NCBI GenBank assembly: GCA_016648135.1
Contig: JADDOH010024930.1
Coordinates: forward strand, 1 to 64,000
Source of the DNA: Agrypnia vestita
Taxonomy: Eukaryota > Arthropoda > Insecta > Trichoptera > Phryganeidae
DNA: 64,000 bases
Reading direction: 5' to 3'
Shown here: in pieces, positions 5,101 through 63,480 of the stretch
Layout: each line of letters starts with the position of its first letter
Position numbering within the stretch: the stretch's first letter is position 1
Position numbers and translations under genes: made by a program
Notes under the pieces: generated by a model
What the model saw: the letters and a program-made list of their open reading frames with translations, nothing else
Told to the model about the DNA's origin: nothing
Database searches by the model: none

Positions 5101-5248
5101 TTTGATATAATTTTGCTCGACGGGATCTGTCACGAAAAACCCAGCGCAAAAATGGCAAGCAGCTCACAGACAAAACCATAGAAAAACGTCAAAAGCAACA
5201 ATATACCATAGATACGCATTATACATATTACGAAATGTAGGTAGGTAC

Positions 5249-19673: not shown

Positions 19674-20381
19674 ATTATGCTGCATTACACACACGGTTTT
19701 AATTGAACAAGTAATTATATTAAACAAGTTTTTCACGAAATATTCAATAAATACTTTATTCAGTCAACTACAAAATAAGTCATAAGTACCATCTCCCCGG
19801 GAATTTGGCTCGTTACATGTTTATAAAAAGGTGTAAAGAGTTGTACGTGGATCGAGCCGATGAATTCCTACGATTAGCCGCCAATATGTATAACCCCCTT
19901 TCTTAGGTTAGGTTACGTTTGGTTGTTTAATTTTATTAAAAACTTAATTTTAGGTTACATTTCGTTGTTTAATTTTATTAAAAACTTAAATTTAGGTTAG
20001 GATAGGTTTAGTTTGGTTAGGTTAGGTTAGGTTAGGTTTGGTTTGGTTTGGTTAGTTAGGTTAGGTTAGGTTAGGTTAGCTTCAATATTTAAAATGAGGA
20101 GCAATAATTGATTTCCAAATTATTGCCAATCAATCATTGCTTCTCAATAATCCTCCTCGATGGGATCTCCACCTTGTCGAGGTGAGGTGGCTTGAGTATT
20201 CCAAGGATTATGTGATCTTGACTGGGCTATAGTGCAAATATCAGAAGCCAGATAGGTCACAGATGAGGAATCAGACTAAGAGAGATCCACTTTTAGAAAT
20301 GCTTTAATTACTATCAAGTATCAATAAAGTATTTATTAAATATTTCCGTATATTAAAACCGTGTGTGTAATGCAGCATAAT
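19674..20381. repeat. 708-bp foldback element enclosing TTAGG-type arrays
   Basis: Left end ATTATGCTGCATTACACACA and right end TGTGTGTAATGCAGCATAAT are perfect inverse copies. The arms continue through ACGGTTTTAAT and GAAATATTCAATAAATACTTTA with small differences. The interior includes (TTAGG)n/(TTTGG)n tracts, a hairpin near 20100-20150 and a segment (20158-20300) resembling LINE leader sequence. No intact ORF. Confidence 0.75.
19903..20080 (+). repeat. (TTAGG)n/(TTTGG)n interstitial telomere-like tract
   Basis: Repeated TTAGG and TTTGG pentamers with interruptions, the insect telomere motif. Shorter tracts in the opposite orientation (CCTAA) are at 18470-18500 and 20384-20460. Interspersed single blocks rather than a long pure array argue against a true chromosome end. 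Confidence 0.8.
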
Positions 20382-20383
20382 AA

Positions 20384-20460
20384 CTAACCAAACCAAACCT
20401 AACCTAACCTAACCAAACCTAACCTAACCTAACTAACCAAACCAAACCAAACCTAACCTA
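20384..20460 (-). repeat. (CCTAA)n/(CCAAA)n telomere-like tract
   Basis: Opposite-orientation TTAGG/TTTGG pentamers directly abutting the right end of the 19674-20381 foldback element. Confidence 0.8.
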
Positions 20461-21700: not shown

Positions 21701-22517
21701 TTATATAAATACTCGATGTTTTGTTTACTTTTTAAAAGACTTCCAATGTAGTACCTTAGTGTTTGCTCTGTATGTTTCGTGTTATTTTTTTTCTCTATTT
21801 TTAATTTTATTGTTATTATTAGGATGCACAGAGTACCAGAGTAAATATTAAATCATTATTTGAGCTTTATGAAAATAAATCTTCAGAACTGTATTAACAT
21901 TATATTTATACAAAAATTATTAACATTGCAGATATCATGAGAACACAAGATTCTTTTCCGGATGATCCAACAATGACTTCACCTGCCCTTGGAAAGCAGC
22001 CGAAACTGGAGACCATTTCCAACCCTAAAAAATCCTCAGGCGAAAATGCGCTCACTCCCGCTGGTGAGAAGGCATTTACGTGTTCTCAGTCCCCGTACAC
22101 AAGCAAGCAGAAGGCTTTCTTGAGAATTCACCAACTCTCACGTACTCGAAAAAATAGTTTTTCGTGTTCACAGTGCAATTATTCGTGCAGTCATAAATCA
22201 ACCTTACAAAAACATGTGCTTTAAGCACTCTGGAGAAAAACCGTTGTCGTGTTCAGAGTGCAGTTATTTGTGCTGTCAGAAATCAAGCTTAAAAACACAT
22301 ATCCTTATACACACTGGAGAAAAACCGTTTTCATGTTCACAGTGCAATTATTCGTCCAGTCGCAAATCAAGCTTAAAAAGTCATTTGGTTTTACACATTG
22401 GAAAGAAACTATTCTCATGTTTACAGTGCAAATATTCGTGTAATCGTAAATCGGATTTTCATGTTCATGTTCTCAAGCATATTGGAGAAAAACTATTTTC
22501 TTGTTCACAGTGTAATT

Positions 22518-22740
22518 GTCCGCGGCGCTCCGCGCGATTTAAAAATGATTTTATTCCCATCGCGCGAGCTTTCCCTGTATATCAAGACCACGAAACATCA
22601 ATTTTATTCAATATTACATTTACAAATGTCTTATCTAATTCTTAAATATTTCATTCTTAAGATATTTCATTAAATATTTCATCAAACTTAAATATTTCAC
22701 TTTCTTAAGTATTTCAAATATTTCAACACTTTATAAGATA
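22518..22740. repeat. Inserted repeat truncating zinc-finger gene A
   Basis: Sequence changes abruptly to CCGCGGCGCTCCGCGCGATT and contains CATCGCGCGAGCTTTCCCTG, matched at 27896-27922. The tail has several ATATTTCA/AAATATTTCA repeats (22640-22725). Family unknown. Confidence 0.45.
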
Positions 22741-24608: not shown

Positions 24609-25380
24609 TACAGCGACGATTTGTTATAGATAAGAAACATACTCTGCAATTCACTACTATATTTTGGTATAATCACTAAATAATAAGTCATTGTTTTCCT
24701 TTATTTTGATTTGTTCAGTAAATTATTTATCAAATTTTTTTAATGTAACATATACTAAATGTTTTTTATTGTAAAATTTATTATATTCATTATGGAATTG
24801 GCGGATTTGATGTAAATAAATATTTAATTCAAATTTATCGTATTTTATTTTAAAACCTTTACATTTTCAGGAATAAATATTAATTTAAACATAAATATAT
24901 AAATAAATCAAGCTAAATGTATGTGACGGTCGCTAGGTGGCGACTGTTAAAATCATAGAATTCAAGACTTTATGAGTGCGCGTTCTTTATCTTCTTTATT
25001 CTGTGATATGCGCGCGGCGGCAGCGCTGCAGTGGCGAAATTTCGAAATCATTGTCAGGGACACACATATCAAAATATCTATGACAATTTGTCTGTCATAT
25101 CGATATAGTCCGTCCAACTTATCTGGAGAATAAAGGAGGGCGTCCCAATCGTTGTAGTGCTGCCCATAGTCTAAAAATTATCTCATTTTTAGGGAATTTT
25201 TTGCAAATTCGTTTTTTCTTAAACAATTTATTAAGCAGTATATGACACGATAAAAAACAAAAAATGTAAACTAATGTACAAATAAATTTATCAAAATACA
25301 CGTCACCAAATGGCGTTTTTTCAAAATCAAAGAAAAATACAATTTTCAGAAAAAAAAACAAACAATAATAATTCTTTCAG

Positions 25381-25563
25381 GCCGGCGCCACATTACGTAG
25401 ATATTCCGCCGCGTCTTTTCCGTTGCGCCAAATCAGCAAAGCAAATAGATCGACCGATCATCCGCGTAGTGTGTTTAATCAGCGCATACTGTATGGAAAG
25501 AAATGTAGCGATGTTCCGCGACAGAAGAGACGCGGCGGAAGATTCGCGCAGTGTGGCTCCGGT
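25381..25563. mobile_element. Nested MITE inside mariner copy A
   Basis: Ends GCCGGCGCCACATTACGTAG and, inverted, GGAGCCACACTGCGCGAATC, followed by matched CCGCCGCGTC blocks. The same insertion is present in the copy at 47404-48697, so it predates their separation. Confidence 0.65.
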
Positions 25564-25628
25564 TTTATTCGGTGTCTCATACCTAATGATCTGACCTCCA
25601 TGCTTAACTCAGTAACAGGTTTAGGGCC

Positions 25629-31441: not shown

Positions 31442-32250
31442 AGTGAAGCAACGAATACTACTTTCGCGAATGCGAGTGTCAAGCTTACTATTCGGTGAAT
31501 ACGAATGCGAATATTTCCACCAAGGTGGGGGAACTTAAACATACTTGTAAATATAATTACCTTGATGCAACGAATACTACTTTCACGAATGCGAATGTCA
31601 GGCCTACTATTCGGTGAATACGAATGCGAATATTTCCACCAATGTGCGGAACTTAAACATACTTGTAAATATAATTACCTTGATGCAACGAATACTACTT
31701 TCACGAATACGAATGTCAGGCCTACTATTCGGTGAATACGAATGCGAATATTTCCACCAAGGTGGGGGAACTTAAACATACTTGTAAATATAATTACCTT
31801 GATGCAACGAATACTACTTTCACGAATACGAATGTCAGGCCTACTATTCGGTGAATACGAATGCGAATATTTCCACCAAGGTGGGGGAACTTAAACATAC
31901 TTGTAAATATAATTACCTTGATGCAACGAATACTACTTTCACGAATACGAATGTCAGGCCTACTATTCGGTGAATACGAATGCGAATATTTCCACCAAGG
32001 TGGGGGAACTTAAACATACTTGTAAATATAATTACCTTGATGCAACGAATACTACTTTCACGAATACGAATGTCAGGCCTACTATTCGGTGAATACGAAT
32101 GCGAATATTTCCACCAAGGTGGGGAACTTGAACATACTTGTAAATATAATTACCTTGATGCAACGAATACTACCTTCACGAATACGAATGTCAGGCCTAC
32201 TATTCGGTGAATACGAATGCGAATATTTCCACCAAGGTGGGGGAGGACGC
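31442..32250 (+). repeat. Minisatellite, about 7 units of 118-119 bp
   Basis: Units such as those starting CTTGATGCAACGAATACTAC at 31561, 31679, 31798, 31917, 32036 and 32154 are nearly identical; a partial unit precedes and a diverged one follows. Each has TTCGGTGAATACGAATGCGA and CCACCAAGGTGGGGGAAC (a CCACC/GGTGG hairpin). Units are not a multiple of three, so the 60-76 codon frames are not genes. Confidence 0.95.
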
Positions 32251-32303
32251 AAGCATACTTGTAATTATATTGTTTATGTCTGCTTGTGATATCACTATAC
32301 GGC

Positions 32304-33400
32304 GTAGATGAACTAGTTTGAAGGGGTTTATGTCCTGCATGTGCTCGGCGTAGAGGGAATGGTCTTTTGTTTCTAGGATCCTATACAGTTTTACAGGCGC
32401 TGATATTGAAATATATATGCAAGGAAAACACTATTTTGGGAATCACTAACTGGATGACAAATATTGAAGCACATATACACACAAGGAGGACGTTATGTTA
32501 AATACATGACTGGAAAGTTGTTATTGGAAAACACAGGCGCCACTAGAGGATGTGGACAGTTTGCAGAGAACTTCAACTTCTGTCAGTTAAGGACCTTTTA
32601 CAATTACTATTCTTCCGCCTTTTTGCATAACCGTGGATGAACTAGATTGAAAGGGCTTATGTTCTGCATGTGCTCGGCGTAGAGGGAATAGTCTTTTTGT
32701 TTTTAGGATCCTATACAGTTTTACAGGCGCTGATATTGAAATATATATGCAAGGAAAACACTATTTTGGGAATCATTAACTGGATGACAGATATTGAAGC
32801 ACACATACACACAAGGAGGACGTTATGTTAAATAAGTTGTTATTGGAAAACACAGGCGATACTAGAGGATATGGACAGTCTGCAGAGAACTTCAACTTCT
32901 GTCAGTTAAGGACCTTTTACTATTACTATTCTTTCGCCTTTTTACATAACCGTGGATGAACTGGATTGAAGGGGTTTATGTTCTGTATGTGCTCGGCGTA
33001 GAGGGAATAGTCTTTTTGTTGTCAGTTAAGGACCTTTTACAATTACTATTCTTCCGCCTTTTTGCATAACCGTGGATGAACTGGATTGAAGGGGTTTATG
33101 TTCTGTATGTGCTCGGCGTAGAGGGAATAGTCTTTTTGTTTCTAGGATCTAATACAGTTTTACAGGTGCTGATATTGAAATATATATATACAAGGAAAAC
33201 ACATTTTTGGGAATCATTAACTGGAAGGCAGATATTGTAGTACACACACACACAAGGATGACGTTACTTTAAATACATGTTATTGGAAAACACATACAAG
33301 GAGAACATCATTTGAAGGCGTTACTAGAGGATATGGACAGTTTGCAGAGAACTTCAACTTCTGTCAGCTAAGGACCTTTTACTATTACTATTCTTCTTGT
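32304..33400 (+). repeat. Tandem array of about 320-330 bp units
   Basis: GATGAACTAG(A/G)TTGAAGGGG-type starts occur at about 32308, 32637, 32954 and 33074; the third unit is deleted to about 120 bp. Each full unit contains GTGCTCGGCGTAGAGGGAAT, ACAGTTTTACAGGCGCTGAT and GAGAACTTCAACTTCTGTCA. No coding potential is shared across units. Confidence 0.9.
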
Positions 33401-40721: not shown

Positions 40722-41936
40722 ACAGGTTTTTAAGCTTGATTTCTGATTGCACGGATAATTTTACAGTGAAAATGAAAACAGTTTCTCTTCAGTGTGTTTA
40801 AAAACATGTTGTTTGATTTTCCAATTGCAGTAATAATAGTACTGCAAACATGAAAATAATTTTTCCCCAGTGTGTGTAAGCACGTGCAGTTTAAATTGTC
40901 ATTTCTGATTGCAAGAGTAATTACACAACACAACAGTTTATTTTCAGTTTGCTTAAGAACATGTTGTTTAAAATTTGATTTTCCAATTCCAGGAATAATT
41001 GCACTGCAAACAGGAAAATAATTTTTCTCCAGTGTGCTCAAGCGAGTGTAGTTTAAAGTATTTTTTCTGATTGCAGGAATAATCGCACTGCGAACATGAT
41101 AATAATTTCTCTGCAGTGTGCGCAAGCACATGTTGTTTCAAGGCTGATTAGAGGAATAATTGCACTCGAACACGAAAATTGTTTTGCTCCAGAGTGGTTA
41201 AGCATGTGTACTTTTATGCTTGATTTACGAATGCAAGAATAATTACACTGCGTACACGAAAATAATTTCCCTCCAGTGTGCTTAAGCGAATGTAGTTTAA
41301 GGTAATTTTTCTAATTGCAGGAATAACTGCACTGCGAACGTGGAAATAACTTATCTGCAGAGTGCCTAAGCGCATGTTGTTTTAAGTGTGCTTTACGATT
41401 GCAAGAATAATCGCACTGCGAACATGAAAATAATTTCTCTCCAGTGTGCTTCAGCCCATGTTCTTTAAGGTTCTTTTTCTGATAGCAGGAATAATCGCAC
41501 TACGAACGTGAAAATAGCTTTTCTCCAGTGTGCTTAAGCCCAGGTCTTTTTAAGTATGATTTCCGAATGCAGAAATAATCGCACTGCCCACACGTAAACA
41601 ATTTCTGTTCAGTGTGCTTAAACACATGTTGTTTAAATTGTGACTAGTGATTGCAAGAATAATGACACTGCGAACATGAAAATAATTTCTCTCCAATGTG
41701 TTTAAGCGCATGTAGTTTAAAGTATTTTTTCAGATTGCAAGAATAATCGCACTGCGAACATGAAAATAGTTTCTCTCCAGTGTGCCTAAGCGCATGTTGT
41801 TTTAAGTCTGGTTTCCGACTGCAGGAATAATCGCACTGCGACCATGAAAATAATTCCTCTGCCGTAAGCGTAGGCACATGTTGTTTTAAATATGATTTCC
41901 AATTAGAGGAAAAATTGCATGCGAACAAGAAAATTG
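40722..41936 (-). pseudogene. About 15 decayed zinc-finger units after the stop of gene B
   Basis: Immediately beyond the gene B stop the 84-bp finger period continues on the minus strand. Finger signatures are seen at roughly 41900, 41835, 41751, 41667, 41583, 41499, 41416, 41331, 41246, 41160, 41088, 41002, 40921, 40840 and 40758. They have premature stops, indels (for example CAGTGC reduced to CATGC just after the stop) and lost Cys/His codons. One 94-codon open patch (41644-41928) still holds two full fingers of CSQCDYSC..K type. The decay increases away from the gene. Confidence 0.85.
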
Positions 41937-44900
41937 TTATGCTCCAGAGTGGTTAAGCATGTGTACTTTTAAGCTTGATTTACGAATGCAAGAATAATTA
42001 CAATGCGAACACGAAAACAATTTCTCTTCAGTGTGCTTAAGCGAATGTTGTTTAAGGTATTTTTTCTGATTGCAGGAATAATTGCACTGCGAACATGAAA
42101 ATAATTTCTCTGCAGTGTGCTTAAGCGCATGTCGTTTTAAGCTTGATTTCTGATTGCTGGAGTAATCGCACTGCGAACATGAAAATAATTTCTCTCCAGT
42201 GTGCTTAAGCGAATGTTGTTTGAGGTATTTTTTCTGATTGCAGGAATAATTGCACTGCGAACATGAAAATAATTTCTCTGCAGTGTGCTTAAGCGCATGT
42301 TGTTTTAAGCTTGATTTCCGATTGCAGGAATAATCGCACTGCGAACATGAAAATAATTTCTCTCCAGTGTGCTTTAGCGAATGTTGTTTGAGGTATTTTT
42401 TCTGATTGCAGGAATAATTGCACTGCGAACATGAAAATAATTTCTCTGCAGTGTGCTTAAGCGCATGTCGTTTTAAGTTTGATTTCCGATTGCAGGAATA
42501 ATCGCACTGCGAACATGAAAATAATTTCTCTCCAGTGTGCTTAAGTGCATGTCCTTTTAAGCTTGATTTCTCATTGCTGGAATAATCGCACTGCGAACAT
42601 GAAAATAATTTCTCTCCAGTGTGCTTAAGTGCATGTCGTTTTAAGCTTGATTTCTGATTGCTGGAATAATCGCACTGCGAACATGAAAATAATTTCTTTC
42701 CAGTGTGCTTAAGCGCATGTAGTTTTAAGCTTGATTTCCGATTGCAGGAATAATCGCACTGCGAACATGAAAATAATTTCTCTCCAGTGTGCTTAAGTGC
42801 ATGTTGTTTTAAGGTTGATTTCTCATTGCTGGAATAATCGCACTGCGAACATGAAAATAATTTCTCTCCAGTGTGCTTAAGCGAATGTTGTTTAAGGTAT
42901 TTTTTCTGATTGCAGGAATAATTGCACTGCGAACATGAAAATAATTTCTCTGCAGTGTGCTTAAGCGCATGTTGTTTTAAGTATGATTTCCAATTGCAGG
43001 AATAATCGCACTGCGAACATGAAAATAATTTCTCTCCAGTGTGCTTACGCGCATGTTGTTTTAAGTATGATTTCCAATTGCAGGAATAATCGCACTGCGA
43101 ACATGAAAATAATTTCTCTCCAGTGTGCTTACGTACATGTCGTTTTAAGCTTGATTTCTGATTGCTGGAATAATCGCACTGCGAACATGAAAATAATTTC
43201 TCTCCAGTGTGCTTAAGTGCATGTCGTTTTAAGCTTGATTTCTGATTGCAGGAATAATCGCACTGCGAACATGACAATAATTTCTCTCCAGTGTGCTTAA
43301 GTGCATGTCGTTTTAAGCTTGATTTCTGATTGCTGGAATAATCGCACTGCGAACATGAAAATAATTTCTCTCCAGTGTGCTTAAGTGCATGTCGATTTAA
43401 GCTTGATTTCTGATTGCTGGAATAATCGCACTGCGAACATGAAAATAATTTCTCTCCAGTGTGCTTAAGCGCATGTCGTTTTAAGCTTGATTTCAAATTG
43501 CAGGAATAATCGCACTGCGAACATGAAAATAATATCTCCCCAGTGTGCTTAAACGAATGTAGTTTTAAGTATTTTTTCAGATTGCAGGAATAATCGCACT
43601 GGGAACATGAAAATAGCTTCTCTCCAGTGTGCTTACGCGCATGTTGTTTTAAGTCTGATTTCCAATTGCAGGAATAATCGCACTGCGAACATGAAAATAA
43701 TTTATCTGCAGTGTGCGTAAGCACATGTTGTTTCAAGTGTGATTTCCAATTAGAGGAATAATTGCATTGCGAACAAAAAAATTGTTTTTCTCCAGAGTGG
43801 TTAAGTATGTGTACTTTTAAGCTTGATTTACGAATGCAAGAATAATCGCACTGCGAACATGAAAATAATTTATCTGCAGTGTGCGTAAGCACATGTTGTT
43901 TCAAGAGTGATTTCCAATTAGAGGAATAATTGCATTGCGAACAAAAAAATTGTTTTTCTCCAGAGTGGTTAAGTATGTGTACTTTTAAGCTTGATTTACG
44001 AATGCAAGAATAATCGCACTGCGAACATGAAAAAATCTTCTTACCAGCGGGAGATTTTTTGGCATTTGAAATGGTCTCTAAAGTTGGCAGGTTTTCATGG
44101 GCAGGCGAAGACACAGTTGGGCTTTCCGAAAAATAATCTTGTATTCTGAAGATATCTGCAATGAAAATATTTTAGTTAGGTTACGTGCAGTTGGGATCCA
44201 GGATCTTTTCGAGAATTTGTTCAGTAACAATAGTTGAGTGTTCTGATTTAAAAAATTAAATATGATAGGTAGCTTTGATTAAGTAAAAAAGAAAAGCATG
44301 GCTTAAACTTTTGACATTGAAAGGGGAAAGAATATAAGAGAGCAAAATATTTTTATTTTTTATTTATTTATATATCTTTATTTAGTTAATGATACATAGT
44401 TGTTTATCATAAGCTAATATTATAAACGTGTACACTTATTAAATAATATTTCTCTTGTATATCGATTCTGCTCAGCTTCCTCACACCTTCTCGCAGGCTA
44501 TTATACTCATTTATTGCCTTGTAATAAATACAGTTTTGTGTGTTTATCTTTGTTCTATTTGGAATACTTATTTTGTTTGCATTTCTTGTATTATGTCTAT
44601 ATATCTCTGTTATATTTCATCTTATTTTTAAAATATTTTGGCATTTTGTCGTTTAATATTTTGTGAATGAATAACATTGTATTTAATTTTAATTCTTGTT
44701 TTATATTAATCCAAATTAAATTTGAGAGCATCTTTTTAATTTTGGAATATCTATTTCTCTGTAGAATTATCCTCATTGTTCTATTCTGTTAAATTTGAAT
44801 ATTGAAAATGAGGAGCAATACTTGATTTATATATATTTTTATGGCTCTTTCTTTAGTTAATTTTGGTCTTATTCTTCCTAAGAATGGTACTTTTTATGCA

Positions 44901-47900
44901 GTTTTCTTTGTTATGTATTCAGCATGGTTTTTAAATGATAATTTAGAGTCTATAATTATACACAAATATTTTAATGTATCCACTATTTCTATTTCTTCTT
45001 CATCAATCTCTATCTTTATCTCAACATTTGTACAATGCTCTTAAGAAAAGTGTCAAATTTGGTGTGAAGGAAATAACGCCGGAAAAGAGAAGAAGTAAAA
45101 GAATGTTCAAAGAATGTTCAAAGTATTTTAACATGAGGTGTTAAACCCTGATGTGGCGCGGAAAGCAGTAAAATGAACGGTATAAAGTCAATGAACTGAT
45201 AAATATTAATGAGTTGGGACTAAATACAAGAAAAAGGAGTGAAATATTTTCAGGAAATGTGGGAGCACGAGAATACGTAAGTGAAAAATGCGGAGATATT
45301 CAATGAATGACGAAAATGAAGTGAGTGAAAAAAGTATGTTAGAAACAACGAGAATAGAACAAGGGAACTAAAGGGCAACAGGCTATTGAGCTCAGCCGGC
45401 AAACTTTATGAAAGAATTTTTATAGAAAAAGTTCGTTGACCAAAGAAAAGGTATGGGACTTGCAAGGGGCTCCTGTGCGTGAAAGTAGATGCGTGGATCA
45501 GATCTTCTCGAGTGTTGACGGGAAAAGTTTTTAGAGATAATTCAAATTTTTTTTTGTCCCTTTATATACAGGGTTATTTGGAAAATATTAATAACCTCGC
45601 AGGGCTATAATTCTGCCATCAAGAGTTATGGAGATATGCGACATCAAAGTTGGCATTTTTTTTTCAATATTTCTTACTTATTTTTTGTAAAACTTACGTT
45701 AAACTATTTTTGTAAAACTATTTTTTGTAATTACGGTAACTCATATTGATCACGAAAAATTCATTCGTTTCAATGCAAGTTCAATAAAATGATAAAAACC
45801 CCGAAAAAAATTCAATTGGAATAACTAGCTTGATCATTTTCGACTTGTAATCAAGGCAGGAATATAGCCCTGCGAGGTTATTAATGTTTTCCAAATAACC
45901 CTGTATATGTAAAAGGCTTACGATATAGTTATAAGAAGACAGCTAGGTTATGGAAGGTACTCTTTGGTAACAGGGCGAACAGTTAACGTGAACTAGCAAT
46001 ATCATCCATAAGCGGTGGAAATAATGTGTGTAAGAATCAACCATAGTTTGATATTACAAAAAATTTCAGTTAGGGTTGCGTAATGTCTCCACGGCTGTTC
46101 AACTTTTATTTGAATAATTGTGTCGAAGAACTGAAATGCGTGAATATACATTAAAAAATGAGCGATTAGGTTGTATGTCGGATGATGCAGTTATTAATGA
46201 CAAATAGCCAACAAGATTTACAGTGTCAAGTTAGCAAGATGTATGCAAGGAAAGTGACATTATAAGAACAAATGAAGCATGTGTTGACGAGGTCAGAAAG
46301 AGGGGGTGGCCGCGAAGCACAACCAGATACTGGAAGACGCTCCCCATTGGACGCAATTAGGAGCATCAGCAATCGTCGAGCTGCACGCGAGGATGTGTGA
46401 ATGTCGATGAGTCGAGAGGCGTGGGTCAGGACAGAAGTGTGGCGGTCAATCTCCCTGCCTTCGTCCGCGGAGAAACGGCGGGATAGTAAGCAAGTTAGAT
46501 TTAAGTAATAATAGAGTTACATATTAGACTTTCAGTTTTCAAAATTTCACCATGCATGTTGACATTTGATACGTTTCATCTATGGTTAGCTCACGTTACG
46601 CAAACATCGATAAAAGAGAAACATAATAAGTACAGAAACTTTGGATTTTTGCGAAATGCTTGTTTTTAGGTAGTTTCAGATTTTTAAAAATTATAATGCA
46701 TATATACATATACTTACGTATATTAATGATTAAACATGGATGTCACGACCCCTAGGTATTTGAGACCGAATCGGAGGATTATTATTGTTTGTGTTTTTTT
46801 CTGCAGAAAATCGTGATATTTTTCTTAGATTTTTAAATAAACGCCATTTTGCGTCTCTCGGCATGTATATTCTGATAAATTTACATGTGAGTTAGTTTGC
46901 AATTTGTGTTTTTATCTCGCGTTGTATACTTTAATAACTTGATGAAGAAAAGACGAATTGGAATAAATTCCCAAAAAATGAGGAATTTTCTGACTGTGGG
47001 CAATACTATATAGATTGGGGCGCCCTCCTCCATTCTACAGATAAGTTGGACGGACTGTATACTAGGGATGGGCGTTGAATGGACGGACTAGTTGAAATCA
47101 ACCGTTGACGTTGCATCGACGCGTCGACCGTTTACGTTTATCGCATGGACTAGTTGAATTCGTAGACGGTGGACAGCGGACGCCGTGGTCGGTGGACGAT
47201 TCGAGATTAACGCAATGCAAAGCAACGAGCGAGAGCAAGACAAAACGTCTCCGTTTATTTCTCTCTCATCTCTCGCTGTCGACCACAGAATAAAGAAGAT
47301 ACTGTCGACTTGTAGATGCCATAGACGTCATAGACGGCTCGACGGGTAATTTCATTTCAACTCTAAAGTACACTACCACAGAGTGCAGATCTGTGTACAC
47401 GAATCGTGTGGTACTGCCCATAGTGTAAAAATTATCTAATTTGTAGGGAATTTTATGCAAATTCGTTTTTTCTTAAATAAGTTATTAAGCAGTATACGAC
47501 ACGATAAAAAACAAAAAATGTAAACTAACGTACAAATAAATTTATCAAAATATACATTCGTAAAATACACGACGTCACAAAATGGCGTTTTTTCAAAATC
47601 AAAGAAAAATACCATTTTCAGGAAAAAAAAACAAACAATAATAATTCTTTTAGGCTGGCGCCACATTACGCAGATCTTCCGCCGCGTTTTTTCCGTTGCG
47701 CCAAATCGGCAAAGCAAATAGATCGACCGATCATCCACGTAGTGTGTTTAATAAGCGCATATTGTATGGAAAGAAATGTAGCGATGTTCCACGACAGAAG
47801 AGACGCGGCGGAAGATCCGCGCAGTGTGGCGCCGGTTTTATTCGGTGTCTCATACCTAATGATCATGACCACCATGTTTAACTCAGTAACACCTAAGGAT

Positions 47901-50900
47901 ATCAATCGGTTTAGGGCCGTTGTATCAACTTGGTTTATAGTAATCTTTCGTTCAAAGCATAGATATTTTGCATTTTCCACCGATCAAACAACTCGATCTC
48001 GTAAAAATCTATGCTTTAAATGAACTATTGCTATAAAGTAAGTTGATGCAACCAGTCTTTAATGTGCATAAATAAAAAAGTTTATTTTTGAAAAAAGATG
48101 TTTATACAAATGAACTCGTTAATGAATTATGTAATAAAAAGTATAAATAATAAAAATTCTATGTAAAAAATTATCGAATAAAATATGTTCTAAAACTTTT
48201 CTCATATTACGGCTTCTAATTCAATTTTTCCACTTATCCTTGTTCTTTTTTTCCGGGTGTAGATATTTTAATGCCCATTTCCACGGCCACTTTACCTTCT
48301 TTAACTATTTTGTAAATTGCCGATTCAGAAATACCTGAAGAAATTGTATAATAGTAAATAAAAAACTAAGTATGCGAAAATCATTATAATTGCATGGCAG
48401 CATTAACCTGAAGTGGCGGCAATAAGTCTATGAACAAAATCAAACGGTATAATTGGGGCTTTTAGACGTTGTTCCTCTTCAAAAAACGTGTGCATTTTCA
48501 AGATTATTTCCCGAAGACCGCTTTTAATGGTTTTTGGCATGGTGACAATCTAAAATGTTCTTAAAAAACTATCGAAACAGTCGTGAACCTCTCTGTAAAC
48601 AAAGTCTGTCAAAGGTCTGTCAGCTGTAGATAATCCAATATGGCGTCGTTAGTTCCAAATTTGGCCATTCTTCAGATAAGTTAGACGGACTATACATGCT
48701 TAGGGCGAGATAAACTTAATAAGCTATTATCTATTATTTTTTTACTTGATTTTTTGTGATGTCACGTGCGACGATTCGGTGAATTCCCAATTTTACGCTG
48801 TATAAAATAAAACAATTCTGTTTAATTATTTTATTTTTTATTGAACTATTATTAATTAACAGGCCGGCTAGATATTTTTCTAAAATCAATATTTTATTCG
48901 ATCGATCTCGACTTCTTATATCTACCTGAAAAGGGATGCTAAAATTTAATTATTGTGTTATTTCCTTACTTTTCAACTTTAGCATATAAATGATAAACAA
49001 ACTTGTAGGGAATAAAATTTTCTATACCTAACTATGGTCCTTATTCAGGAGTCCAACATTAATTATTATATATGTAATATAATCTTGAATTTAGGTTTAA
49101 TTAATTTTTATTAAAAATTCCCTATTTTCAACTTTATAGATAAAAAAATAAATCTATTATAATTTTGTTTACACCACTTTTTATTGTTTTTTTACATGTT
49201 TCGGGAACAATGTTCCTTTTCTCAGATTGAGCCTTAAACTAAAGTTGACAAATAATACAGATATATTTATTTATTAATAATGTCACCACAAAGTGAAAGC
49301 CTGACTTTGAAAGATGTATTCTTCAATAAATTTCTATATAACATTTCAAATGTAAAGTATTTTTAAATTATGTATTTATTTATAAATTTATAGATAATAT
49401 ATAAATGTAAAGTATTTTTACCGCACCTCATAACTGGTGCCTTTATTACGCAAAATCATTGTTTCCTTCCATTTTATTTACTCATATTTTAATGCTTATA
49501 CCCAATACTTTCACTGCTTATATATATGTAGTTTATATTTATATGTTACTGCTAACACCTGATATTGCTGTGTATACCTACTTTCTTTCTTTGTTATATA
49601 TAGAAAGAAGTATATAAAACAATATGTAAAAGCCTATAATGTGCGTAAACAAATAAATAATAAAATATTTCTTTTTACAAATAAGCACAAGTAGCGGTTT
49701 TACTTTCCCCGAAACTATATTCCTTCGAACTTCTTTAAATTTTAAAAATTAACGTCATAAAAATAGCCAACGGTTGAGCCGTCGAGAAGCGTCGCGTTGA
49801 ACCGTAGACAGTTGACCATCGTCCCGATGTTTAGATAGAACGTCCGCGACGTCCGCGTAACGAAGTTGACGCGTCAACTAGTTGACGAATTCAACTAGTT
49901 GATCGTCTCGTCGATGGATGGACGTGGACGGTCTCGTTTCGTCGATGGTAAATACGTCGACGACCCATCCCTACTGTATACGATAAGTTACTTCATTCTG
50001 ATAGCACGGCTTCTGTCAGTCGGGCGCTTGTGAGTCATGAGATGTCAAAATACTACGGTTTCTTATAAAATGACGACAAAGTTAGTAGAATCTTGAGAAA
50101 TGTAATGGAAAGTTTTATAGAAAATATTAAAAACATTATAATACGGTAATTTAACATTTTATCTATGAAAATATATGAAATAGATTCAGAAAAATAAATT
50201 ATAGTTTTTAACTCAGAATGGGTGGCGTGGGATAGTATTTTCATTGATAATTTTTGTAATAAAAGTCCTAAAAAATACGATCCCATTAAAACGCGACACG
50301 ACGTCACTTTGCAGGAATTAAAGATAAAGCATGTATTCTATGTTTTTTTTTCACTATAACTTGTTTATTTTCTATGGTCACTCTACGTCTTCGCTTTGTT
50401 TTTACTCGTGTATGCTTGGTGTTTATATAGATTTTGCGGGGTTTGTGACCTATTTTAATAGAATAAACTATCTAAGAACACATTTAAAATAATGTAAGAC
50501 GGATTTTCGCAAGGAAATTCCAATTACTTGACGAAAATTGATAACTTAATGTTGGCTTCATTTTTCTCTAACATTATAGGAATTTTCCAGGAATGAATTC
50601 CTACATTTAGGTATCATACAAAATCTACAAACTTTTTACCAGACATTGTGGATGCACTAAACAAAAACGGCGGCATGTTTTGTAAAAAAATTAATGAACG
50701 TCTAAACACGCGAATGTGCTGTTACGTGTTAAACGTCAAATTGACATAAAATTTTATACATGTCGTCCTTCGCGAAAATAAATGTTTTGACGGAAGTTTA
50801 AAATAATGATTTTCAAAATCGTTTTTTAATGTTAATATATGCATCAAAAAAAACTTTTTGATATTTGACGGGCCGGTGTGCCCAGTCATCAGATAACGAA

Positions 50901-56545: not shown

Positions 56546-56552
56546 TATAAAA
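56546..56552 (+). promoter_or_regulatory. TATA box of the Pro/Cys-rich gene
   Basis: TATAAAA 53 bases before the start codon, with a plausible initiator around 56577-56582 (ATCAAACATC), 30 bases downstream. A strong TATA promoter is typical of highly, tissue-specifically expressed insect structural genes. Confidence 0.7.
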
Positions 56553-56604
56553 TGAGGAGCAAGCCCGCAATTGCCATCAAACATCGGTGATTCCACTGGA
56601 CACG

Positions 56605-58544
56605 ATGGCGTCTCCGACAGTCTGCGGAATATTCTTCGTGCTAGCCGTACAGGTAATTACAAAATATTCATTTTTAGATATCTTTCTCAGACCTATATGG
56701 TAAAAGAGATATACGCGTAACAAATGATTTGTTCTTAAAAATACGATAAGATATTCTAATAGCGACTCGAGCAGTCAATAAAATATATATTTCTTAACGC
56801 TAAAGAATTTATATGGACATGTGTTTTTATAATTAATCAATACGTCTCGGCATGTACTGCACAGTACATGCACACGCGCGCATTAATAATTCTGAAGCAT
56901 TGATATAATGTATAGATGATTTACTACTAATTAGATTAGGTACTTCATATTATTTTTATAATAAATTATCTTAGTCGTAATTAAAAAAAATTGTTATATC
57001 CAAACAAATCTTGGATGAATATAAAGGAGCCTTATTTGGGGAATGAAACTAACTATAATTCAACTATTTTGATAATTATTTAATTTCTAACATTCTTAAA
57101 TAAAACACATTTACAGGGAGCCCTTTCTGCCTGCATTCGGCCTGAGAATCCTACACTACATATATGTTTAGCATGCCCTGAACGGTGCCCGCAACAGCCT
57201 CTACCACCTGCACCATGCTGTAAGCCATGCCCACTCTCACCATGTCCTGAACCATGCCCGCCACCGCCTCCACCACCTGAACCGTGCTCTAAGGCATGCC
57301 CACCACCACCATGCTCTGAGCCATGCCCGTCAACACCTCCAATACCTGAACCGTGCCCTGAACCATGCCTGCCACTGCCTCCACCACCTGCACCGTGCTC
57401 TAAGCCATGCCCACCACCACCATGCCCTGAACCATGCCCGCCACCACCTCCACCACCTGCAACGTGCTCTAAGGCATGCCCGCCACCACCATGCTCTGAG
57501 CCATGCCTGTCACCATCTCCAGTACCTGCACCGTGCCCTGAACCATGCCCGCCACCGCCTCCACCACCTGCACCGTGCTGTAAGCCATGCCCACTACCGC
57601 CTCCACTACCTGCAACGTTCTCTAAGCCATGCCCACCACCGCCACGCCCTGAACCATTCCCGCAACCACCTCCACCACCTGCAACGTGCTCTAAGGCATG
57701 CCCGCCACCACCATGCTCTGAGCCATGCCTGTCACCACCTCCAGTACCTGCACCGTGCCCTGAACCATGCCCGCCACCGCCTCCACCACCTGCACCGTGC
57801 TCTAAGCCATGCCCACCACCACCATTCCCTGAACCATGCCCACCACCACCTCCACCACCTCCACCACCTCCACCACCTGCAACGTGCTCTGAGGCATGCC
57901 CACCACCACCATTCCCTGAATCATGCCCGCCACCACCTCCACCACCTGCAACGTGCTCTGAGCCATGCCCGTCACCACCTCCAGTACCTGCACCGTGCCC
58001 TGAACCATGCCCGCCACCGCCTCCACCACCCGCACCTTGCTCTAAGCCATGCCCACCACCACCATGCCTTGAACCATGCCCGCCACCACCTCCACCACCT
58101 GCAACGTGCTCTGAGGCATGCCTACCACCACCATGCCCTGAACCATGTCCGCCACCACCTCCACTACCTGCAACGTGCTCTAAGCCATGCCCGTCACCAC
58201 CTCCAGTACCTGCACCGTGCCCTGAACCATGCCCGCCACCGCCTCCACCACCCGCACCGTGCTCTAAGCCATGCCCACCACCACCATGCCCTGAACCATG
58301 CCCGCCACCACCTCCACCACCTGCAACGTGCTCTGAGACATGCCTACCACCACCATGCCCTGAACCATGTCCGCCACCACCTCCACTACCTGTACCATGC
58401 TCTGAGCTATGCCCGTCATCACCTCCAGTACCTGCACCGTGCCCTGAATTATGCCCACCACCGTTTTGCCCCGGACCATGCCCGCCACCGCCTCCGCCTC
58501 ATGCACCGTGCTTCAAACTGTGTTTACCACTTCAATGTCTGTAA
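56605..58544 (+). CDS. Secreted Pro/Cys-rich repetitive protein, two exons, 491 residues
   Basis: CDS is join(56605..56652,57117..58544). Exon 1 encodes MASPTVCGIFFVLAVQ and ends at CAG|GTAATT (phase 0). Exon 2 follows ACATTTACAG and opens GALSACIRPENPTLHICLAC; a signal peptide cleaved near ALSA|C is likely. By hand count exon 2 has about 246 Pro and 74 Cys in 475 residues, almost no Gly or aromatics. It is built from blocks CPPPPPPPA(P/T), CS(K/E)(P/A), CPPPPC(P/S)EP and CLSPPPVPAPCPEP, so Cys spacing alternates x3, x4 and x8-10. The C-terminus differs (FKLCLPLQCL). Exon 2 has no ATG-led ORF in this frame, so ORF finders miss it. The frame is open through all 1.4 kb despite repeats, indicating selection. 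AATAAA signals are at 59066-59071 and 59086-59091. I know no family with this pattern; an extracellular crosslinked structural protein (silk, cement, eggshell or cuticle) is inference. Confidence 0.88.
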
Positions 58545-59400
58545 TCGTGCCCGTGTATTCCTTGACGTGACCTAATTCTATAATTAGCCTTTGAATCATA
58601 AGCTTCACTCTGCCATTCTCACACTCATCTTTTTTACTTTTTCTTACTTATGCACCCTGCTCCATGAGTGAATCTCGTCCATAGAAATCATGTAAAGTAA
58701 TCACGCCCTTACTAAACGCACGTAGTATTCGGATCGTAGTACAGCGGATCCTTTAAGTTTGTTTTCTCCTTGCCAGATTCTAATTCATTTCTCGATTATT
58801 GTTTCCGTGTATTCTTGTGGCGAGTTTGCCCCTTAGTACATTGGTCCACAACCTTAATCATCTCGTTCAACTTCATCACCATCGCCGCAATATTATTTTA
58901 AATTTAAACCCTTTTTTTCAGTAAAAAATATTTTTGACGTATTTTTTCTAAATCATTGTGTAATTTCTTGTTAAGAATTTTACTTTAATGCCAAGTGATA
59001 AGAATATTGTGTTTTCCAAAATTAACAACTTTCGTATAATTTTTTGTAAAGAATTTATTATAATCAATAAACAATTTGGCAATTAAATAAAATTATTATA
59101 TCATTTCATTTCAGGAAATACATTCGTTATAAAATGATATTATATATATATATAATATATTATTTATATATATATATATTCAATGTACCGAAAAAAATTG
59201 TAATGTTTATTTTACAAGGATTTTGTTTTTCTCCGTTCTGAAAATTTTTGGCAGGTCTTAGGCAATAAGCAGAGGTCACTTTGCGCAAATAAACCATTTC
59301 TACAAAGTTCTCAGTTTGGCTGAATTATAACCGATCCTATTATTTTAAACTGTGAACCTAAACAGATTAAATTCAATTTTTCTAGAAATGGCTTCTCTGA
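58545..59400. other. 3' UTR and flank of the Pro/Cys-rich gene
   Basis: AT-rich with two AATAAA signals near 59066 and 59086 and a (TA)n microsatellite at 59143-59182. No other gene. Confidence 0.45.
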
Positions 59401-60480
59401 GACAATCTTTATCAACAGTTCTCTAGATTCTGGGAGCTGGAGGAGCTTCCAAAAAGAACACGCATTAATGACAGCGCGAAAGCTGAGAAATATGAGGAAA
59501 ACCTTAAAAAAACACAACTCGCCTCGAATCGGGTCATTTCACCAGAATGTTTAAGTGAATTATACAATCTAGCCAAAATACAATTAAGTCTAGAAAAAGA
59601 AATTCGAAAACAACCGGATCTGAAAAAAGCCTTTAGTCAGTTTATCAGAGTATCGGTCACTGTTCTGAGTCTTCTATTCAGCGATCAGAACCAGCCTATT
59701 TTTTATGTCATCATGTTGTACTTCGAGACAAAAGCGAGTCCACAAGACTTCGAGTAATTTTGATGATTCCGCTCCAACTTCATCGGGTGTATCCATAAAT
59801 GACCTGCAAATGGTAGGCCCAACCATACAGGATTCCCTTTTTTCAATACTTCTAAAGTTTCGCTATCACAAGTTCGTTCTGAGCAGTGACATAGAAAAAA
59901 ATTTCCGACAAGTAACTCTCAATGACTTGTCAGAGATCTTTAACTCTATCAAAGTCATTGATACTTTTTAGTATCAATAACTTTGGAGTACGAAAACTTT
60001 GGAGAGAATACTTTAGAGAGAAGAAGATGAGTCAATGCCTATCAGAACACTTAGATTAAATACGCTGACGTATGGCTTCGCTAGCGCCGGCTATCTAACA
60101 ACTAATTGTCTAAGTATATCAGCTAGGAGAGGAGTTCAACGATGAGACCATCAAAACTATTATCCAGAAGGATCTATACTGCGATGACCTACTCGCGGGA
60201 ACAGAAGACAGAAGCTGAACTTCTCCATGTTCTAAACTCAGTTTCTTCAATCATGTCATCAGGATGTTTCTGTTTGCGAAAATTCAGATCTAATTTACCC
60301 ACACTACTCGAATCTTCCAATATCAATTTGCAGCGATTCTTCAAGGGCTTTAGGTCTAGGTTGGGACCCAAGATCGTACACCTTACATTTTTCAATCGAA
60401 GTATTGAACTCAAACAATGTCGGTCATTCATTAGTTGAAGAATTAAACAATTGGTTTGTACATTTGGTTAGGTTTTCTCA
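59380..60480 (+). pseudogene. BEL/Pao-type retrotransposon pol fragment
   Basis: Pieces in several frames read TSSNFDDSAPTSSGVSINDL, QMVGPTIQDSLFSILLKFRY, HKFVLSSDIEKNFRQVTLND, then LNTLTYGFASAGYLTTNCLS, QKDLYCDDLLAGTED and the downstream SSGCFCLRKFRSN. These are ordered reverse-transcriptase motifs of BEL/Pao elements (FDAS..TSSG.SLND.L..GP..Q.SL..I...FR....+.+DIEKM+RQ ... LN.+TYG.A.A.YL ... YVDD+L.G ... GF.L+KW.SN). Several frameshifts and stops; no LTRs, integrase or gag were seen. Confidence 0.8.
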
Positions 60481-60489
60481 AGAGCAATC

Positions 60490-61230
60490 GTTTTCAAAAG
60501 AACTTAACGCAGGTGGAAGACTAGATTTGTCTGACTAAGACTAAAAGTCCTCAATTATTTTGCACCCCAATCCATCAGTTTACTTAATTGATTTTTCAAT
60601 TCGACCACAACCGTCATTTGCACGCCAGACCTCAACTGTTAATGTGCACTATAAGGTAAAATGCATGTCCGATTTCTGGTAGAAACCTCACAAGTCCTGT
60701 GCGTAACTGCGTCACGTGCAGATGCCATAAAGGCCAAAATATCACCCATATGATGGGCAACATCAACTTTCAGCGAGTCACACCTACCATCCCATTCCAG
60801 ACCGTAGGTACACATTTCGCGGATCCATTTTCCATATTGAACACGAAAGGGAGAAGTGCTTAATATCAATATTAATGACCCAACATTGTGTAATCAATTT
60901 CTTAAATATGCGAATACTCTATTTACTGCAGGAATATAAGATACATTAGAAAAAATTATGATGTGATTCTGGCTATTCTCGACTCCATACAACATGGATT
61001 CAATACCTTGTCTTTGGAGAGGCGTGGCTTAAAGATGTAGCTAGTATCCCAAGTATTAAGGGATATTCGTCTTAAAATTCGTCCAACAAAAACTTCCACC
61101 GGAGTTGTTGTATATATTCGAAATGATTTAGTAGCGTCTGTCGAAGAAATAGTTATTCCACACGCAAATTGTCTGAAATAACAACTATCCAACAAATTCT
61201 GCTTATAGAGATTTCCTTCTAAATCGGACA
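60490..61230. other. Unassigned stretch between two retroelement relics
   Basis: A 76-codon minus-strand frame (60639-60869) reads REMCTYGLEWDGRCDSLKVD and is unusually non-repetitive, but I recognise no family. Confidence 0.3.
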
Positions 61231-61239
61231 TTGTTGTTT

Positions 61240-63480
61240 TTCTTGACCACCTAAATGTTAACATTCTGGATACTGATAATTGGAATACTAATCAATATCT
61301 TTCACTTATGACGAATCTTCTAAAATCTGAATTGAAAGATGGATCATGGAATACAGTTTTGTCTACGAATGATGTTAATATTGCTACTGATAATTTTATA
61401 ATGTGTTTAAGTAGACACATAATCGCTGCACGTCAATAAAGAGAATACATTGGAGCAAAAAATATTTAAAGCCCTGGATAACTTTCGGATTTGTTGAATG
61501 TCTTATAAAACGAGACAAAATTCATAAAAATTGCCGCATGGAGCCTAATAATATTGAGATGATTGCGTATTACAAAATATATAGGAATTGGTGCACAAAA
61601 ATTATAAAGACATCCAAACAGTAATATTACAGGGAGAAGCTCAGCGAAGTCAGTGGAAATACAAAACAACTATACAAAATTATAAAAAAAGCATTGGATC
61701 TACAGAAGGAGCCTGTAGTTATAAATAGATTGATCACTAACATTAATACTATCTTTACAAATGATAATCCAAGTCTCTTTACTCACCGTGTGATTAATTA
61801 TTTTAGTGATATAAGACACAAATTTGCAGATCTCTTGTGCAGTTCAAATAACACCAGTGAAGGGTATCTAAGTGAAATTTTTAAGCCGATGTATCAGACA
61901 CAAAATGTTTTCTTTTGTATTTAGCCCTACAAACGAACAGAAGTTTTAAAAGTGATTAATAATATCACATCGGGTTTTTCAAATGGAAGTGATGGTATAA
62001 ATGCAATGGAAAATAAAAATCATGGTTCTCAACTGGTTAATTAAACCTATAACACATATTGTAAATATTAGTTTTATCAAAGGTGTGTTTTCTGATCGTT
62101 GTAAAAATGCCAAAGTTATTTTAGGGAGGAGACAATTTAGAAACTAACAATTATAGAGCAATTAGCCTTCTCAATACCTCATCCAAAATAATAGAGAAAT
62201 TATCCAAAATAAAATTGATGAAATATGTACAAAAATATGAAATTCTCTCAGAAAATCAATTTGGCTTCAGAGAGAATTTAATTATAATTGACCCGGGATC
62301 AAAAGTGATAAACAGAGTTGTAGAAACATTGGATGCTGGTCGTAGGACATTGGCAGTTTTTTTGGATCTGTCCAAAGCCTTTTTGATACTGTATCCCATG
62401 GTATACTCCTTATTGGTATTTAAAATAGGGCGCTAAATTGGTTTAGAATATACCTGGAAAATATAATGCAAACAGTAACAATAAAGAAACATGTTAGTTC
62501 CGATAAAATAGTTTTATAAGTCGTACCCCGGGGTAGTGTACTGGGACCCATTTTATTCTGATAATATATTAATGACCTATGTAAATTAAAATTTTCCGGT
62601 ATTTCTGTAGCATTTGCAAATGATACAGTTTTGGTATTTAGTGGTGATACTTGGGAAGAAACCTATGCTAACAGTGATGAAAGTTTATGGACAGCAAAAA
62701 GATGGCTCGATAATAATCTTCTTACACTGAATGCTCAAAAAACTAAATATATTACTTTCAGTATTTTTTCTATAAGCCAACCTTTACACGATGATTTGAC
62801 ATTACATACCTGTGCTTAGGAATGCAATTGTCATTCCTTGGAAAGAGTAGATAATATCAAGTATGATGTGATGATGATATAATATCAAGTTGAAATAAGT
62901 ATCGATAAACACCTGAAGTGGAACAACCATATTACTATGTTAACATTTAAAATTAGAAAACTTACATATATCTTCAAGGAATTAAGGAATATACTGGACA
63001 AAGACACTTTATAAACCGTATATTATGCTATTATATAATCATTACTAACTTATAATATTATTTGCAGGGGAAACTGCTACAAGACTACTCTAGAGCCTTT
63101 AAATAATGCACAAAAATTAATCTTAAGAATTAAAAAAAGTTTTTTATACACTTCACAACTTTTGTTCAATGAAAATAAAATCGTGACTGTCCGCCAGCTT
63201 GCCATTGTTTAGACTCTATGCAAATTGTATCGCTAGCTTGTCATTATTTAGACTCTATATAAATTCTGTACAGTCAAAATTATTGCTAAACGGACCCAGC
63301 AAATACGCTGTATTTTAATGTCTACTTCTTTAATGTATCAGCCAATAAATGCCAAGACAGTGTTTGGACAAGGATTTTTTTTTTACCAGGCTCATTTGTT
63401 CTTTAATGTTCTTTCCGAAAACATTAAGAGTGCCAATACTCTGTAACTTTAAAAAAAATGGTTTAGGATATTATGCTGAC
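61240..63480 (+). pseudogene. LINE (Jockey/CR1-like) reverse-transcriptase relic
   Basis: Ordered motifs: YREKLSEVSGNTKQLYKIIK, then AISLLNTSSKIIEKLSKIKL, ILSENQFGFRENL, TLAVFLDLSKAF, VVPRGSVLGPILF..YINDL, SVAFANDTVLVFSGDTWEET, RWLDNNLLTLNAQKTKYITF. These cover the fingers, palm and thumb of a non-LTR reverse transcriptase. The catalytic YADD box reads FAND, so two key positions are changed, and there are many stops. The 3' part overlaps sequence shared with 55650-55760. Confidence 0.85.

Follow-up and report, generated by a model that had tools for sequence, protein, structure and literature searches.

The question raised by positions 56605 to 58544 of this 64,000-nucleotide stretch of the trichopteran Agrypnia vestita (contig JADDOH010024930.1; the whole stretch is hereafter called the window) is whether a GC-rich repeat that stays open in several frames at once is a gene and, if it is, what kind of material its protein could form. 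The best reading of the sequence appears to be a secreted, spliced, Pro/Cys-rich structural protein. With a probability of roughly 0.6, the two-exon gene on the plus strand is real and encodes a secreted structural protein that would be cross-linked by disulfides after export. The parts of this predicted gene are as follows.

56546..56551, plus strand: TATA box TATAAA, a putative promoter element
56577..56579, plus strand: TCA initiator-like site, the probable transcription start to judge from its spacing to the TATA box
56605..56652, plus strand: coding part of exon 1, MASPTVCGIFFVLAVQ, most of the predicted signal peptide
56653..57116, plus strand: intron of 464 bp, phase 0, GTAATT...TTTACAG
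57117..58544, plus strand: exon 2, with the leader end GALSA followed by the Pro/Cys repeat protein
59066..59071, plus strand: first AATAAA past the stop, a candidate polyadenylation signal that would give a 3'UTR of about 0.5 kb

The TATAAA at 56546 and the A of the TCA site are separated by 33 bp, and the ATG stands 26 nt beyond the TCA site, giving a predicted 5'UTR of about 26 nt; the context of the start codon is ACGATGG, with A at -3 and G at +4. The intron is bounded by a CAG/GTAATT donor and a TTTACAG/GG acceptor, and it holds a branch-site match, CTAAC at 57087-57091, whose second A lies 26 nt from the intron 3' end. Exon 2 contributes 475 codons and closes with a TAA at 58542-58544. 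Joined in phase 0 after codon 16, the two exons remain open for 491 codons and would yield a preprotein of 491 aa. A preliminary description of the locus had given these exon coordinates, this frame, the phase 0 junction, the TAA, and a TATA box with an initiator, all of which are confirmed here from the sequence. The joined leader reaches a Kyte-Doolittle mean of 3.04 over its best 10 residues and, judged by eye and by this hydrophobicity, is a predicted signal peptide; with cleavage placed by eye before Cys22, the mature part is predicted to have 470 aa.

The chance of such an arrangement was estimated by dinucleotide shuffling of the upstream 626 bases, in which the last 40 bases, carrying the acceptor and the branch site, were kept fixed. 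An ATG, an in-phase AGGTRA donor and an open leader averaging at least 2.5 over ten residues arose together in 2 of 3000 shuffles, both of which also contained TATAWA somewhere. On both strands of the window, CTAAC lies 15-45 nt upstream of 37 of the 2845 YAG sites, and CAGGTAA[GT] sites number 5 in all. The GC content of exon 2 is 62%, while its 2-kb flanks have 31% and 35% and the whole window 34%.

About 1.4 kb of the repeat is open in three of the six frames. Besides the Pro/Cys frame, these are a His-rich +1 frame of 467 aa, which opens only at 57172, and a Gly/His-rich minus frame of 472 aa (57080-58498); the only Met of each of these two lies close to the C-terminus, and neither yielded a credible acceptor. 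The +1 frame has five acceptor-like sites with 80% pyrimidine (threshold 75%), none of them with a branch-like CTRAY motif upstream. A true gene on the minus strand, encoding a cuticle-type Gly/His-rich protein of which the Pro/Cys frame would be a shadow, is more troublesome to separate by codon statistics, because the 472-codon minus frame shares its third codon positions with the Pro/Cys frame, and codon-position statistics therefore tell the two apart poorly. Indeed, A or G closes 69 of the 74 codons preceding a TG-codon, which is what His in the minus frame requires. The endings within the plus-strand codons point the other way: codons starting with TG end in C or T in 74/74 cases, those starting with GA end in A or G in 27/27, and those starting with AA end in A or G in 12/13, of which the TG and GA endings are unneeded by the minus frame. 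These endings favour the plus frame, with the caveat that the repeat copies are not independent; the third positions of the Pro codons are A in 138, T in 63, G in 42 and C in 3. The minus frame also has no start codon before the repeat, its sole ATG lying near the frame end, and from 3 nt before the frame opening onward the minus strand showed no AG whose preceding 15 nt exceeded 60% pyrimidine. A minus-strand gene is thus highly improbable.

Substitutions between the repeat units were examined for selection. In the Pro/Cys frame 8 of 32 inter-module changes are synonymous, against 9.3 expected, a count that covers 29 of the 34 modules; the five diverged, odd-length or terminal modules that were dropped account for four of the five knot cysteines that are lost. 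In a cruder nearest-neighbour count 10 of 43 changes are synonymous where 17.1 would be expected. Assuming independent changes, the probability of 8 or fewer synonymous ones would be about 1e-6 at a dN/dS of 0.2 and 0.016 at 0.5, and strong purifying selection within the Pro/Cys array is unlikely. In none of the three open frames (Pro/Cys, +1 and minus) did the synonymous counts speak for selection. A synonymous excess in frame +2 (14 vs 6.7 in the nearest-neighbour count) was rejected as a coding signal: that frame gains stops, and the excess fades to 10 vs 9.1 in the 29-module count. As a control, a zinc-finger array in the same window was put through the same test and gave 12 of 44 synonymous changes, against 10.1 expected, with 0 stops in its own frame against 3.3 expected (22 fingers, found by motif). 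Since this control is likewise without synonymous excess, the synonymous test has little power here. Young arrays in the window need not carry a synonymous signal, and the most apt description of the Pro/Cys array is that it evolves fast or drifts.

These results bear directly on an alternative in which a GC-rich minisatellite has its frames held open by composition, the upstream exon is coincidental and no stable protein is made. It would account for the three open frames of about 1.4 kb and for inter-unit substitutions that look neutral. It would also account for the intact Pro/Cys frame, in which 0 stops are seen and 0.69 expected: no stop among 32 changes has a probability of 0.473, and openness alone proves little because zero stops are expected about half the time. 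Since the repeat substitutions look neutral, the coding case rests on gene anatomy, and here a minisatellite fares badly: the TATA box, initiator, leader, donor, branch-site match and acceptor all agree in one phase, the non-repeat N-terminal lead-in shares the Pro/Cys frame, 34 modules are read through without a frame-shifting length change, and the zinc-finger array of the same window shows that the lack of synonymous excess is not peculiar to this repeat. Such a minisatellite is judged unlikely.

The predicted mature protein, as read from the plus-strand gene, is extreme in composition. Its 470 residues comprise 246 Pro (52.3%), 74 Cys (15.7%), 27 Glu, 27 Ser (5.7%), 26 Ala, 21 Leu, 12 Lys and 11 Thr (2.3%), with 4 Gln, 2 His, 1 Gly and no Tyr, Trp, Met or Asp; its mass is 47.5 kDa and its net charge -12. 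It had been described as consisting nearly only of Pro, Cys, Ser, Ala, Glu, Lys and Thr, which holds for 423 of the 470 residues but omits Leu (4.5%). The arrangement of the repeat is given by the following segments, with the module letters explained below.

57132..57215, plus strand: non-repeat lead-in CIRPENPTLHICLACPERCPQQPLPPAP, start of the predicted mature protein, with the cleavage site placed by eye
57216..57533, plus strand: higher-order repeats 1 (partial, B-C-D-E, 46 aa) and 2 (A-B-C-D-E, 60 aa)
57534..57995, plus strand: higher-order repeats 3 and 4, of 74 and 80 aa, with diverged modules and five lost knot cysteines
57996..58439, plus strand: higher-order repeats 5 and 6, A-B-C-D-C'-E, of 74 aa each
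58440..58541, plus strand: diverged terminal module, ending CFKLCLPLQCL

Each module consists of a CX3C knot and a linker, and the typical forms are A, CPEPC-PPPPPPPAP; B, CSKPC-PPPP; C, CPEPC-PPPPPPPAT; D, CSKAC-PPPP; and E, CSEPC-LSPPPVPAP. There are 34 module starts, 9 or 14 residues apart except for a single interval of 20. CX3C motifs number 33, where 2000 shuffles averaged 11.5 and never exceeded 21, and Glu or Lys lies inside 32 of the 33 knots (21 acidic, 11 basic), the acidic and basic knots being intermixed along the chain. This bears out the earlier remark that charged residues stand between the cysteines. Distances from Cys to Cys are 4 in 31 of 73 cases, 10 in 20, 5 in 11 and other in 11, while linkers between whole knots have 9 residues in 17 of 30 cases, 4 in 9 and more in 4. 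The spacing had been called strictly patterned, with gaps of x3, x4 and x8-10; the first two stand and the third is nearly always x9, but "strictly" is too strong, as 5 of the 68 knot positions in the 34 modules read Phe or Arg (modules starting at exon-2 residues 167, 176, with two losses, 236 and 265). Similarly, what had been taken for a distinct C-terminal cap reads as a diverged last module and not as a separate domain. Taken modulo 3, the cysteines fall into registers of 23, 25 and 26, so that an ideal polyproline II helix would carry them on each of its three faces.

Higher-order repeats 5 and 6 are identical at 213 of 222 nt. Every tandem-repeat period reported for the array is a multiple of 3, and so is the length of each of the five higher-order copies measured; no frame-shifting length change occurs across the 34 modules. 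The 9- and 14-residue modules have been amplified as higher-order repeats of 60 aa and, later, of 74-80 aa.

Other repeats were seen elsewhere in the window. A C2H2 zinc-finger array at 41937-44171 on the minus strand forms a single 744-codon open frame, with 84-bp units in 37 copies over 40945-44041 that are 82% alike, and a smaller zinc-finger array lies at 22124-22645 on the plus strand. Young satellite-type arrays occupy 31444-33140 (a 119-bp unit x6.9 at 96%, a 319-bp unit x2.2 at 91% and a 120-bp unit x2 at 97%). Two short interstitial arrays resemble telomeres, TTAGG x17.8 (19992-20079) and, about 0.3 kb away and oppositely oriented, CTAAC x15.6 (20384-20460); arthropod telomeres are usually built of TTAGG. 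The plus-strand ORFs at 25286-25591 and 47529-48020 have in common a nearly identical peptide, RPII-VVCLISAYCMERNVAMF-DRRDAAED-RSVAPVLFGVSYLMI, probably from a dispersed repeat.

Relatives of the Pro/Cys protein were sought in several collections. The preprotein and exon 2 gave no match in a large protein collection at E 0.001 or E 10, scored among the 7971 and 7976 candidates sharing most words with them, and residues 1-48 drew 2 candidates, none at E 10. Pattern matches were found in IMG/VR (29) and in bacterial and archaeal genomes (260), of which 0 were confirmed in either set. The PDB gave no match for exon 2 at E 0.01 nor for the 60-aa repeat string at E 10; Pfam, arthropod cuticular families included, gave 0 families at E 0.01, where low complexity may mask a match; and Rfam gave no match over the whole window. 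Within the window, an unmasked tblastn search for paralogues, with hits starting in 57000-58600 set aside, returned exon 1 and some weak fragments (best E 3.3), and among its stop-to-stop frames of at least 40 aa, exon 2 is the sole one with more than 25% Pro+Cys. Because the protein searches depend on 5-residue words in common, HMMER adjusts for composition and the insect content of the protein collection is uncertain, absence of relatives is weak evidence. The protein may be called an orphan in the sense that relatives were not found in the collections searched, none of which is known to include insect genomes. No described insect protein of this Pro/Cys pattern was found in the literature searched, which was thin in subscription journals; the literal string PCPPPCP was matched in macaque IgG literature, as excerpted. 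AlphaFold, given exon 2 alone, predicted no fold (best model with mean pLDDT 43.2 and pTM 0.14), which would be expected for a non-globular chain and equally for any low-complexity sequence without relatives.

The Pfam search of the window's 113 ORFs also matched QCR9, a ubiquinol-cytochrome c reductase subunit (E 7.6e-15), in one ORF, which by its sequence we take to be that at 4834-5163 on the minus strand. One ORF each matched a TNP-like GTP-binding insertion and a reverse transcriptase; by reading of the ORFs these were placed at about 59300-62820 on the plus strand, just downstream of the Pro/Cys gene, where they are probably the remains of a decayed mobile element.

The materials of insect glues, silks and egg coats are generally understood as built on Gly, Ala, Ser, Thr or Tyr. 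The Pro/Cys protein appears to be a repetitive secreted structural protein of unusual design, and a chain that is two-thirds Pro and Cys, with a defined grammar of knots and linkers, would be a neat natural way to build a network that reductants can reverse. It would also exemplify a type of gene that start-codon ORF listing and composition-corrected homology searches can miss. The locus had been called hidden from ORF callers, which is true of those based on start codons, as in-frame ATG, GTG and TTG are absent from exon 2, whereas a stop-to-stop list does show the exon.

How such a chain would harden can be proposed from its composition. The proline-rich linkers would form polyproline II segments, and the whole chain would measure about 146 nm if fully extended. 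With 74 Cys, one Gly and no Tyr, Trp, Met or Asp, disulfides would be the main covalent cross-link open to it: dityrosine is excluded because there is no Tyr, transglutaminase linkage is limited by the four Gln, and catechol tanning could act via the 12 Lys and 2 His only. On an ideal polyproline II helix, cysteines four residues apart are separated by about 12 Angstrom (4 x 3.1), which is too far for the cysteines of one knot to pair. Either the knot bends to form a local disulfide, or its cysteines pair between chains, and the sequence allows both. Pairing between chains would yield a three-dimensional network, and because the cysteines occupy all three rod faces, a network is likelier than a paired ladder. 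Before oxidation, salt bridges of neighbouring acidic and basic knots could place the chains. The earlier proposal of polyproline II rods linked by disulfides thus fits the composition, but side-by-side pairing of the rods is less likely given the three-face cysteines. The material may be stiff, as had been proposed, but the disulfide-linked polyproline hinge of IgG3 is, in the part of that source drawn on, extended but not rigid (PMC8371214).

If the knots closed locally with CX3C disulfides, the product could be a disordered secreted spacer or lubricant, that is, a soluble kinked chain and not a network. CX3C permits small loops if its central residues turn, and in minicollagen CX3C domains, according to the available extract of PMC4863159, a conserved proline is cis or trans by fold and the connectivity differs. 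The Pro/Cys sequence itself does not decide between local and inter-chain pairing, and a spacer or lubricant is considered quite unlikely. A soluble, non-structural Cys-rich protein, serving metal binding, redox buffering, defence or host-directed secretion, is likewise unlikely. Its attraction lies in 74 Cys per 470 residues behind a leader, but metallothioneins typically carry CXC, CC or CXXC, in place of which CX3C with proline linkers is found here; moreover, 33 similar knots with long proline linkers suit a material better, and no Pfam family was matched. For the structural protein preferred here, the likely use to judge from composition would be a hardened extracellular material, namely a gland adhesive, an egg coat, or a silk or cuticle component, of which glue or egg coat is ranked first as a guess. 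A wider claim can be advanced tentatively, that the protein represents an undescribed class of material, a long chain of polyproline segments and charged CX3C knots, with almost no Gly or aromatics, that hardens through disulfides alone; its cysteines, pointing to all three rod faces, would make the network three-dimensional, and fast amplification of the 60- and 74-residue units would renew it. This is held to be possible but doubtful.

Several known systems share parts of this design. The human IgG3 hinge is alike in its extended polyproline and its repeated inter-chain cysteines, with 62 residues and 11 disulfides, and its 11 Cys, at positions 228-276, are spaced all in multiples of 3, as given in the portion of the source available (PMC8371214). 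In our reading, this spacing puts them on one rod face, as in a two-chain ladder, whereas the Pro/Cys chain, over seven times as long as that hinge, carries its cysteines on three faces in the 23/25/26 register. Mammalian SPRR and LELP1 have short Pro/Cys/Glu/Lys repeats reminiscent of PEPC, and SPRR is cytoplasmic and leaderless, with ends rich in Gln and Lys for transglutaminase. Both are described, in the extract consulted, as cross-linked barrier proteins, and SPRR as transglutaminase substrates (PMC5222828). The Pro/Cys protein resembles them in its Pro/Cys repeats but starts with a hydrophobic leader (mean 3.04 over 10 residues) and has no more than 4 Gln and 12 Lys in its 470 residues. 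The Cys-rich chorion proteins of Lepidoptera are Gly-rich, which sets them apart from a protein with 1 Gly in 470. The likeness lies in the curing: the eggshell of Hyalophora is hardened by disulfides among Cys-rich proteins, as far as the source's excerpt goes (PMC13409908).

Closer still are the Pro- and Cys-rich glue proteins of Drosophila, for which disulfide curing in air has been proposed in the sections of the literature available (PMC6352337, PMC9409817). As described there in part, Sgs1, Sgs3, Sgs4 and Eig71Ee have a signal peptide, long Pro-rich repeats with Cys and a variable repeat number; a leader, identified by its hydrophobicity, and long Pro-rich repeats with Cys are found in the Pro/Cys protein too. 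By the same partial accounts, however, the glue repeats are Ser/Thr-rich and glycosylated, whereas Thr makes up 2.3% and Ser 5.7% here, too little for a mucin-type repeat; the intron shared by Sgs1, Sgs3, Sgs7, Sgs8 and Eig71Ee interrupts the signal peptide at about codon 10, in phase 1, against phase 0 after codon 16 here; and Eig71Ee has 8% Cys, against 15.7%. The minicollagens of the cnidarian nematocyst wall are alike in having CX3C cysteines beside polyproline and in polymerising by disulfides into a tough wall, and their CX3C domains, in the extract at hand, pair internally and then reshuffle between chains into the wall (PMC4863159). Their CX3CX3CX3CX3CC domain is absent from the Pro/Cys protein, in which there are never two consecutive Cys gaps of 4, and so is their Gly-X-Y collagen segment (1 Gly). 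By analogy, the Pro/Cys protein would thus work most like the Drosophila glue proteins and the minicollagens, while lacking a defining feature of each.
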